This document shows positions 59,433 through 63,729 of a DNA stretch of 64,000 bases, one piece after another (position 1 is the first letter of the stretch; every line of letters starts with the position of its first letter). The notes beneath the pieces were generated by a model. It was not told the DNA's origin and did no database searches. It worked only from the letters and a program-made list of their open reading frames with translations. Origin of the DNA: Stigmatella ashevillena (GTDB lineage Bacteria > Myxococcota > Myxococcia > Myxococcales > Myxococcaceae); contig NZ_JAQNDM010000002.1 of the NCBI RefSeq assembly GCF_028368975.1, positions 186,001 through 250,000 on the forward strand, written 5' to 3'. A program made the position numbers and the translations under genes.

Positions 59433-61088
59433 ATGCGTTTATTCCTGTGGGTTCTGCTGATTCTGACGATCGCGGGGTGCAAGGGCGAGGAGCGCCAAGC
59501 GGGCGCGGTCCGCGTGGATCTGTCGTATGCGACGTTCCGCCCAGGCTGCCTCACCCTGACGGTGAGCGACAAGGCGGATCCCTCCCGTTTCACGGTCGAG
59601 GAGTTGGAGACTGCGGAGACCCCGGGGGGCAGACCCCCTCGCGGCCGGGAGCTGACGGTGGCGGTCTTCCGGCAGGAGGGTTGGAGCCGTGACCTGATCG
59701 TCACACTCGATGCCTCCGAACAGGGCTGTGCGGTGGAAAACAGAAGAAGCGTTGCCTCGCAGACACAGGAGGCCCAAGTGCCGGAGGAAGGCGTCGTGGT
59801 GGTGCGGTTGGATCTGCGGGCGACGGACCTGGACGATGACGGCTTCGTGCGCACGGACGAGGGCGGGACGGACTGCGACGACGCCAATGCCGCGGTGAAG
59901 CCAGGGGCGAGCAACCTCGCGTGCGCCACGGCACAGGGTTGCGAGGGCACCTTCTCCTGCACTGCGGAAGGAGTGTCGACCGCGTGCGTGAGCCCTCAGA
60001 CGTTCACCCCTTGGTACAAGGATGTGGACGGAGATGGAGATGGAGATGCGAGCGCACCGCTCATCAGCGCTTGCACCGCGCCCGAGTCTGGAGCGGTCAC
60101 CACCTCCGGCGACTGCGACGACAGCTCACCCTTTGTCTTCAACGGCAGAGAGGAGCTGTGCGACCGGTTGGACAACAACTGTAATGGCCAGACGGATGAG
60201 ATGTGCACCCCAGGGGCCTGGAGGGAAATTCTCCCGCCGGATGGTTCCAGTTCAACGATCTGGCGCGCGGTGGCTGTCCACGCGCAGGGCCAAGCGTGGG
60301 TGGCGGGCAATGCCGGCAAGGTGGTGCATGTGGCGGGCACCAGCACCAAGAACTATGCGGACTGCCCCGGCGAATGGATTTCAGCCTGGGCCCGTCCTAT
60401 CGATGGCCGTGTCTTCCTTGGATCGGAGCAAGGGGGATTTGCCACCCACGCGCTGGACGGCGGAGGCTGCGGGGGTCACTACACGGGTAATCAAGAAAGG
60501 CTCAACGGTTTGGTGGGCTTTGGTGATGGAACGGCCACCACGCTCTTCGCAGTGAGCGGTGCGGGGCGCATCTTCCGATGGAACTACCCGGCAGATCCGG
60601 TCCTGGTCACTCAGGTGAACTCTGCCTTGCGCGCCATTCACGGGACGAAGGTGTCGAACCTCCTGGCCGTGGGGACCATGAACGGTACCCCTCAGATTTT
60701 CGCCTCGAATGCAGATGGCAGCCAATGGCGTGAAGAGGCCTTGCCAGCGGGGCTGCCCAGTGGCCTCACGTTGCGCAGCGTCCATGTGGTTCACGATGGG
60801 CTGGCTTTTGCCGCGGGAGACAAGGGCGTCGTGCTAATGCGTGCTCGAGGCTTCTGGTCCGAGTTGCCCCGCCTTCCTGTCGCCACCACCGACACCCTGA
60901 GCATGGTGGCCTACGGCCGGACCGCGCTCTATGTCGCCGCCAACGACGAGACCGTGAAACGGCTCGTCAATGACGCGTGGACCGCTGATTACCAAGGTGC
61001 TTGGACGCCCACTGCCATCGGGGGCTTGGGCCCACACGAGATCTGGCTGGTGGGGTTCAGAAACACCGTCATCCGCTGGGGGCAGTGA
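59433..61088 (+). CDS. MopE-like metal-binding-motif lipoprotein with propeller-like C-terminus
   Basis: A 551-residue lipoprotein; lipobox 'LTIAGC' (Cys16). Two copies of the 'putative metal-binding motif' of MopE type are present: 'DLDDDGF...GTDCDDANAAVKPGA' and 'DVDGDGDGDAS...GDCDDSSPFVFNG', each with the pattern D-x-D-x-D-G and D-C-D-D and followed by 'C-D-x-x-D-N-N-C-N-G-x-x-D-E' (seen as 'CDRLDNNCNGQTDEMC'). The C-terminal half has repeats like 'IWRAVAVHAQGQAWVAGNAG' that suggest a beta-propeller. Such proteins abound on myxobacterial surfaces; calcium binding is likely from the Asp loops. ATG 59433 was chosen for the lipoprotein signal; the frame opens earlier. Confidence 0.8.
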   Translation: MRLFLWVLLILTIAGCKGEERQAGAVRVDLSYATFRPGCLTLTVSDKADPSRFTVEELETAETPGGRPPRGRELTVAVFRQEGWSRDLIVTLDASEQGCAVENRRSVASQTQEAQVPEEGVVVVRLDLRATDLDDDGFVRTDEGGTDCDDANAAVKPGASNLACATAQGCEGTFSCTAEGVSTACVSPQTFTPWYKDVDGDGDGDASAPLISACTAPESGAVTTSGDCDDSSPFVFNGREELCDRLDNNCNGQTDEMCTPGAWREILPPDGSSSTIWRAVAVHAQGQAWVAGNAGKVVHVAGTSTKNYADCPGEWISAWARPIDGRVFLGSEQGGFATHALDGGGCGGHYTGNQERLNGLVGFGDGTATTLFAVSGAGRIFRWNYPADPVLVTQVNSALRAIHGTKVSNLLAVGTMNGTPQIFASNADGSQWREEALPAGLPSGLTLRSVHVVHDGLAFAAGDKGVVLMRARGFWSELPRLPVATTDTLSMVAYGRTALYVAANDETVKRLVNDAWTADYQGAWTPTAIGGLGPHEIWLVGFRNTVIRWGQ

Positions 61089-61239
61089 GTCCCGGAAGCA
61101 CCTGGGTACGGAAACAGGTCTTCCACGCCATCCCGGATGTTTCAGAATGGCCTGACCGTTTCGGACCAGCCTGATCCAATCTGGTGCACTGCCCTCGGCC
61201 CGAGGGCTCCAGTCCCTGTAAGTTCAAGCACTTACGCAT

Positions 61240-61255
61240 TGGCATCATCCCTGCT
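61240..61255 (+). promoter_or_regulatory. Candidate sigma-54 (-24/-12) promoter
   Basis: TGGCATCATCCCTGCT matches the sigma-54 consensus TGGCAC-N5-TTGCW at nearly all key positions, with GG (61241-61242) and GC (61253-61254) at the required 10-bp interval. It is the only such site I noticed in front of a gene here. It lies about 60 bp upstream of the MBL-hydrolase gene, which is followed by a sigma-54 activator gene. The rest of the 61089-61315 gap shows nothing else. Confidence 0.5.
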
Positions 61256-61315
61256 TTGTCCTCCTAGTGTGAATGCGGCCACACCCTGCCGCCAGTACCT
61301 CGGAGGAAGCGCACC

Positions 61316-62155
61316 ATGGAAATCCGGCTTTTCGGCGTTCGGGGCAGCATCTCGGTCTCGGGGTCGCGCATCGGTGGCAACACCGCCTGCGTAGAGGTGA
61401 CCAGCCAGGGTCACCGGCTCATCTTCGATGCGGGCACGGGGATCCGCACGCTGGGCGAGATCCTGATGCGCGAGAGCGCGCCCCAGAAAGCAGCCCTCTT
61501 CTTCTCACACCTGCACTGGGACCACGTGCAAGGGTTCCCCTTCTTCACGCCCGCCTACCTGGGAACCACCGAGCTCAGCCTCTACGGCCCGGGGGCCAAC
61601 GGCGCGCAGGCCTTGCAGCACGTGCTGACCCAGCAGATGGAGCCGCCGAACTTCCCCGTCCCCCTGTCCATCATGCGCTCGCGGATGACGTTCGGCTCGG
61701 CCCTGCACGGCACCCCCGTGGAGGTGGGCCCGTTCCGTGTCACCCCCGTGGATGTGCCGCATCCCCAGGGGTGTCTGGCGTACCGCGTCGAGGCCGACGG
61801 CCACACCTTCGTCTACGCCACGGACGTGGAGCTGGCGCGCGACACCCTCACCGCGGACGTGGGCCGCTATCTCGAGGGGGCCGATGCGCTCGTCCTTGAT
61901 GCGCAGTACACGCCCAGCGAATACGCGGGCAAGGGAGGCATCCCCAAGAAGGGCTGGGGCCACTCCACCATGGTGGACGCCGCACAGGTGGCCCAGGCGG
62001 TGGGCGCTCAGCGGCTGATGCTGTTCCACCATGATCCGGCGCACAACGACGACATGCTGGAGAACATGGCCGAAGAAGCACGCCTCCACTTCTCCGCCAG
62101 CGAGCCGGCCCGGGAGGGCCACCGCATTGTCCTGGGCTCGACCGTGATCGCGTGA
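61316..62155 (+). CDS. MBL-fold metallo-hydrolase
   Basis: A 279-residue metallo-beta-lactamase-fold enzyme. Start 'EIRLFGVRGSI' and 'GGNTACVEV' are typical of a soluble phosphodiesterase-like branch. The metal motif is 'FFSHLHWDHVQGFPFF' (H-x-H-x-D-H), with further ligands in 'VDVPHPQG', 'YATDVELA' and 'LFHHDPAHND'. It may hydrolyse a cyclic phosphodiester or related ester; the substrate is unknown. GGAGG lies 10 bp before the ATG. The stop overlaps a possible GTG start of the next gene, so the two are one operon, probably controlled by the sigma-54-like site upstream. Confidence 0.85.
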   Translation: MEIRLFGVRGSISVSGSRIGGNTACVEVTSQGHRLIFDAGTGIRTLGEILMRESAPQKAALFFSHLHWDHVQGFPFFTPAYLGTTELSLYGPGANGAQALQHVLTQQMEPPNFPVPLSIMRSRMTFGSALHGTPVEVGPFRVTPVDVPHPQGCLAYRVEADGHTFVYATDVELARDTLTADVGRYLEGADALVLDAQYTPSEYAGKGGIPKKGWGHSTMVDAAQVAQAVGAQRLMLFHHDPAHNDDMLENMAEEARLHFSASEPAREGHRIVLGSTVIA

Positions 62156-62223
62156 GACACGGCGAGATGACCCCCGAATGCTATGGTGGCACCACGGCGT
62201 TCGTCCTTCCGCCCCTGCCCACC

Positions 62224-63729
<1,506 letters not shown>

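Follow-up and report, generated by a model that had tools for sequence, protein, structure and literature searches.

Operons that are switched on from a sigma-54 promoter by an activator which they themselves encode are a known kind of circuit. In activators such as NifA, NorR and FhlA, a GAF domain is followed by an AAA+ domain and a helix-turn-helix (HTH). In M. xanthus, according to the excerpt of PMC9765219 used here, the activators Nla28 and Nla6 are encoded in two-gene operons with sigma-54 promoters, the Nla28 targets include the promoter of the nla28 operon itself, the Nla28 half-site is CT(C/G)CG(C/G)AG and the sigma-54 consensus is TGGCACG-N4-TTGC(T/A). The E. coli NtrC consensus TGCACCANNNTGGTGCA is given in the excerpted text of PMC8743547 as a 17-bp palindrome with CCA/TGG cores and a three-base centre. 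The locus considered here lies in a window of 64 kb, the whole stretch of DNA that was analysed, and comprises genes for an MBL-fold metallo-hydrolase and a sigma-54 activator, or enhancer-binding protein (Table 1). As in the Nla28 and Nla6 operons, the activator gene is the partner in an apparent two-gene operon with a sigma-54 promoter; the M. xanthus systems, however, are two-component systems that combine a sensor kinase with the enhancer-binding protein, whereas here the activator carries a GAF domain and is paired with a hydrolase. Its domain order is that of NifA, NorR and FhlA, and NifA is the best NCBIfam match (407 bits; best PDB match, 9qq6), but the protein falls below both the nifA and the norR cut-offs and is linked to other genes than those three. 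In our best reading, to which we assign a probability of about 0.78, the two genes form an operon that its own activator would switch on from the sigma-54 promoter.

Table 1. Features of the hydrolase-activator locus (window coordinates) and of the unlinked SPFH/band-7 gene promoter in the same genome
Feature	Position	Strand	Basis and remarks
Distal activator-site dyad TGTTTCAGAATGGCCTG, degenerate	61138-61154	+	Motif search, alignment; starts 102 nt before the -24 element
Proximal activator-site dyad TGATCCAATCTGGTGCA	61172-61188	+	Alignment, motif search; starts 68 nt before the -24 element
Sigma-54 -24/-12 promoter element TGGCATCATCCCTGCT	61240-61255	+	Motif search and comparison across loci
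MBL-fold metallo-hydrolase, 279 aa	61316-62155	+	Pfam Lactamase_B_2, structure model, alignment
GAF-AAA+-Fis-HTH sigma-54 activator (enhancer-binding protein)	62166-63729	+	Pfam GAF, Sigma54_activat, HTH_8
SPFH/band-7 gene promoter, sigma-54-like element and dyads	G000:C2:2354517-2354590 (L298)		Pattern search

The preliminary description had proposed a sigma-54 promoter with GG/GC spacing about 60 bp before the hydrolase gene, and comparison across loci bore this out. The GG-N10-GC core of TGGCATCATCCCTGCT is intact, the element lies 60 nt upstream of the hydrolase ATG and agrees with the M. xanthus consensus at nine of its 12 specified letters (counted by eye), and transcription is predicted to start at about 61266, 12 nt after the GC. 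By itself the element is weak, near chance within one genome: TGGCA-N7-TGCT was found twice in the window versus 0.64 expected, with at least two matches in 17 of 100 shuffles, and GG-N10-GC was found 1660 times versus 1580 expected. The second TGGCA-N7-TGCT match in the window is TGGCACCCAGCCTGCT (1364-1379, + strand). To the comparison across genomes we brought 75 myxobacterial hydrolase loci, 45 from a named list (best 80 of 162), among them one titled only Deltaproteobacteria (L040) and one titled Comamonas sp. KCTC 72670 (L008), and the 30 best unnamed ones; grouping by 8-mers shared within the 100 bases upstream of the start codon reduced these to 47 non-redundant loci. The operon copy in L008 is myxobacterial (hydrolase 78% identical), and the record is probably mislabelled or mixed. 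TGGC-N8-TGC(T/A) occurs no more than 130 bases upstream of the hydrolase gene in 46 of the 47 non-redundant loci, the sole exception (L045) carrying CGGC, compared with a mean of 0.28 loci and a largest value of 3 over 500 rounds in shuffled upstream sequences. With the spacer varied between 4 and 12, lengths other than 8 were seen at none of the 47 loci, save one at 12, and the opposite strand upstream of the hydrolase gave 0 of 47. It is because the element is kept in nearly all loci at a fixed internal spacing, unlike a lone motif, that the promoter is convincing, and these comparisons strongly support TGGCATCATCCCTGCT as a real, conserved sigma-54 promoter. That it is instead a chance match, with transcription coming from a sigma-70-type promoter or by read-through from a promoter upstream, would agree with the near-chance frequency of the motif in one genome, but we consider this highly improbable given the conservation across loci and given that a simple consensus scan of 61050-62300 found no sigma-70-like match on the sense strand.

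In genome-wide searches, the correctly spaced pattern has matches in 80 of 96 genomes, many of them at other places, and a pattern with the -24/-12 spacing shortened by one base has matches in 14 of 96, none at the hydrolase promoter. A whole-genome profile search for the proximal dyad plus promoter, covering 39 genomes, returned the hydrolase promoter as the best match in its own genome (E 9.0e-11, the own promoter being among the training sequences), the next listed match having an E-value of 0.017. The source genome (10.95 Mb; closest named records among the matches listed, Hyalangium versicolor and other Myxococcaceae) contains a sigma-54 gene, with one Sigma54_DBD match (PF04552, 220.5 bits). 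The gene upstream of the promoter (59433-61088) matches the MopE-type copper-binding motif (PF11617).

Further upstream, clade alignments revealed islands of conservation that correspond to two copies of a 17-bp palindrome, YGMKCCR-NNN-YGGMKCR. The palindromes are of the NtrC-box type, sharing the 17-bp layout, CCA/TGG cores and three-base centre of the E. coli site as excerpted from PMC8743547, differ from the Nla28 half-site as excerpted from PMC9765219, and are candidate activator sites. The window's proximal dyad, together with the promoter, was also matched in whole-genome pattern and profile searches, and its distal dyad is degenerate (score 9.6). Dyads were analysed in 46 of the 47 loci, L009 being excluded as too short. 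The distance between dyad starts is 32-34 bp in 27 of 27 closer loci, and in these loci the start of the proximal dyad precedes the -24 element by 66-69 bp, both spacings being derived from a matrix fitted to all 46 loci; the corresponding values in the distant loci are 21-24 bp (19 of 19) and 56-58 bp (16 of 19, with 66-69 bp in the other three). The spacing differences between closer and distant loci thus amount to about one helical turn. In a held-out test, a matrix from the 27 closer loci, its seed chosen after viewing alignments that included both closer and distant loci, detected the better dyad in all 19 distant loci and the second dyad in 17 of them (all but L029 and L035), detection requiring a score above 95% of shuffled controls. 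The operon therefore has activator-type sites upstream of its own sigma-54 promoter, the arrangement that characterizes an autoregulated operon; the degeneracy of the window's distal dyad and the two held-out failures of the second dyad count against self-regulation.

The hydrolase and activator genes are closely tied to each other. All 75 myxobacterial loci have an activator gene directly downstream of the hydrolase gene. None was seen there at 34 loci with hydrolase relatives from other groups; 32 of these loci are titled cyanobacteria, and a few extend only some hundred bases downstream. A tally of 96 family genomes, with presence defined as E <1e-100 for the hydrolase and E <1e-150 for the activator, counted both genes in 84, the hydrolase only in one (G088, where the contig ends within the activator), the activator only in one (G089) and neither in 10. 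The operon also has a copy in M. xanthus AM003 (L015). In a genome from another family of the order (G096), where identity to the window's proteins is 46% for the hydrolase and 60% for the activator, the operon has the promoter TGGCAAGCCGATTGCT and the dyads TGCGCCAAAATGGTGCA and TGCGCCATTTCAGTGCA. Three activators have no hydrolase in the stretch fetched (L218, L219 and L220, from G097, G143 and G089, respectively). The one in G097 has three dyads upstream; the 650 bases scanned there also contain eight GG-N10-GC matches, among them GGGTACGTGTTTCGCA. No dyads were found upstream of the activators of G143 and G089 in the stretch scanned. The preliminary description implied that the activator begins at 62224. 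In several closer relatives, however, an ATG located 10-15 nt beyond the stop codon of the hydrolase gene (62166 here) opens an in-frame peptide that they have in common; because of this shared peptide, the start is probably ATG 62166 rather than ATG 62224 (a further alternative being GTG 62152), so the two coding regions almost touch.

As expected for an enhancer-binding protein, the activator has an AAA+ domain with the GAFTGA loop (47 of 47 rows) and Walker A and B motifs, followed by a Fis-type HTH. The HTH contains GRNTLxRKL in all 34 complete in-frame rows; of the remaining 13, one is out of frame and 12 are cut short in this region. A nearly identical helix is present in NtrC, and we take it to be that of NtrC-box binders; the operon's activator can therefore be expected to bind an NtrC-type box. 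Its AAA+ and HTH domains are NtrC-like, but it is not NtrC, the nitrogen regulator, in the strict sense: it has an N-terminal GAF domain, Pfam shows no receiver domain, and the NCBIfam ntrC score is 341 bits against a cut-off of 558.6. The main rival to self-regulation accepts the sigma-54 promoter but has the palindromes bound by some other NtrC-type activator, for example true NtrC, with the operon's own activator acting elsewhere. This could explain why the palindrome is laid out over 17 bp like the E. coli consensus (PMC8743547, as excerpted) and why two of the three hydrolase-less activators show no dyad upstream, and the genome has many sigma-54 activator-like sequences that could take such a role (118 first-look candidates, 10 of them scored). 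On the other hand, the hydrolase-less activator of G097 keeps its dyads and the conserved recognition helix fits binding by the operon's own protein, and we regard the involvement of another activator as unlikely. The earlier suggestion that the activator may autoregulate thus stands in the main, supported by the tandem upstream sites, gene adjacency, near-perfect co-occurrence and the G097 dyads, and is weakened by the dyad-less activators of G143 and G089 and by the fact that NtrC-box-type sites could take another activator.

Pattern searches of the 96 genomes led to a second candidate target, a gene of the SPFH/band-7 family (Pfam Band_7) that is unlinked to the hydrolase-activator operon. 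Among the best 30 SPFH loci, one of which was too short, 29 of 29 have a sigma-54-like element near the start together with a dyad whose score exceeds 9, and 25 of 29 have a second dyad above 9, these loci being close relatives with 26 from one genus. Of 20 further SPFH loci, nine have a reliable start (genera g1, g3, g6 and g8), and all nine, including that of the source genome, carry TGGC-N8-TGCA and at least one dyad; in the remaining 11, whose start is not reliable, a dyad was found in the scanned stretch of nine. The two others are those of G093 and G047. G093 has the activator, but the scanned stretch upstream of its SPFH gene, a gene of uncertain start, yielded no dyad, which counts against self-regulation. 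G047, a single genome that is 78% complete, has neither hydrolase nor activator, and the absence of dyads from the scanned stretch before its SPFH gene fits expectation because the activator is missing; this one case also argues against binding by another NtrC-type activator. The profile of proximal dyad plus promoter detects the SPFH promoter weakly (G035, E 0.021), with no such match listed for the source genome. With its dyads and sigma-54-like element, the SPFH/band-7 gene is most likely a second target of the activator. Among the papers listed by searches of the open-licence PMC literature, none was seen to describe this operon or its pairing with an SPFH target. In five genomes of genus g19, pattern searches found the dyads and promoter arrangement before a further gene, which in L328, L329, L330 and L331 encodes a protein of 77-86 residues with one probable membrane helix (by eye) and has dyads of this kind plus a TGGCAT...GGTGCA element upstream. 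The fifth of these genomes, G068, is represented by a pattern match only, and G063 has two copies of this promoter. In G039, a TPR-like gene (L175, G039:C9:214201-214286) has TGGCACGGCAGGTGCT and two dyads upstream and is a possible further target there. An amidase/lipoprotein gene of the source genome was rejected as a target, as only one of 17 homologous loci, scanned like the 29 SPFH loci, has the dyad and a sigma-54-like site.

The preliminary description also put forward the product or substrate of the hydrolase as the GAF ligand. Metallo-hydrolases of the MBL fold bind metal through an HxHxDH...H...D...H set. The hydrolase encoded here has this fold (structure model pLDDT 90) and the metal-binding-type residues H65, H67, D69, H70, H149, D170 and H239, all invariant in 33 rows, and it matched 11 NCBIfam families, each with a score under the cut-off. 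Its best structure matches are RNase Z/ELAC, YhfI and PhnP-family proteins, followed at lower rank by nucleotide-bound MBL proteins, Apyc1 (7u2r, TM 0.63) and yeast PDE1 (4ojv, TM 0.66). It therefore resembles MBL-fold cyclic-nucleotide phosphodiesterases in fold and in a weak match to their NCBIfam family NF041851, but at 52.8 bits against a cut-off of 400 it is not a member of that family, and RNase Z, YhfI and PhnP-family proteins give better E-values. A second hydrolase paralogue in the source genome (G000:C2:595857-596663, 41% identical; L176) has no activator gene seen beside it, and many family genomes carry a paralogue like it.

For the GAF domain, PDB sequence matches were led by CyaB2 (1ykd, E 1e-30), then 4mcw, a metal-dependent phosphohydrolase, and further PDE5A and PDE2A, with PDE10A lower, so that cyclic-nucleotide GAFs make up most matches. 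In CyaB2 GAFb, cAMP contacts include Arg291, Thr293 and Asp356, as excerpted from PMC4411481. At the aligned positions, all 47 rows of the operon's GAF have R, T and D (residues mapped by hand; the window's sequence is present twice among the rows). The pocket resembles those of cyclic-nucleotide GAFs in this respect and in the invariant N, F and D of the NKFDE motif, but differs in that 42 of 47 rows have R in place of the K and the E is variable, and in that the position of CyaB2 Ile308 is A in 46 of 47 rows and that of Asn359 is T in all. The genome has 79 GAF matches; a scan of the 30 best of these loci for a signature derived from the window's GAF found it in one. We rejected the PDB ranking as proof of cyclic-nucleotide binding, since cyclic-nucleotide GAFs are also matched (best E 8e-35) by a control GAF that lacks the pocket signature and belongs to a GGDEF protein encoded in the same genome; another control GAF, of a different type and from an FHA-GAF sigma-54 activator (L241), does not match them, giving one match in all (1e-4).

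From the cyclic-nucleotide-type pocket residues and the phosphodiesterase-type fold of the hydrolase, it is plausible that the GAF ligand is the hydrolase substrate or product, and the earlier claim stands at that strength; a phosphodiesterase acting on the ligand is possible. We somewhat favour the view that the GAF senses something unrelated to the hydrolase, such as redox state, a metal or a metabolite, and that the hydrolase processes RNA or nucleotides and is induced within a stress response, a view that is compatible with autoregulation. This would be in line with the RNase Z-, YhfI- and PhnP-like fold, with the sub-cut-off family scores and with the behaviour of the GGDEF-protein control, as well as with the neighbours of the SPFH gene, which are a divergent cysteine desulfurase-like gene in the source genome and G063 and, following it in the source genome, a DsbD-like gene (names by eye); the invariant R, T and D and the rarity of the GAF signature in the genome speak against it. 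A full feedback, in which a cyclic-nucleotide-sensing GAF protein would activate its own gene, that of an MBL phosphodiesterase destroying the same nucleotide, and the SPFH gene (in some genomes also that of the one-helix membrane protein), would amount to a cyclic-nucleotide-gated, Psp-like envelope response of myxobacteria, and appears rather doubtful.

For the autoregulated operon that we prefer, the predicted sequence of events would be as follows. The hydrolase and activator genes would be transcribed together from one sigma-54 promoter, and a small molecule in the GAF domain would switch the activator. An activator dimer would bind each of the two palindromes, which lie two or three helical turns apart, and the bound protein would contact the sigma-54 polymerase and open the promoter, so that activator and hydrolase would both increase. 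The SPFH/band-7 gene and, in some g19 genomes, the one-helix membrane protein gene would most likely be switched on by this activator as well.

In a group that has many sigma-54 activators, the operon offers a conserved regulator for which a DNA site and two conserved target promoters are predicted, so that the regulon is directly testable. Should the hydrolase destroy the ligand of the GAF domain, the two genes would form a compact sigma-54 second-messenger circuit.
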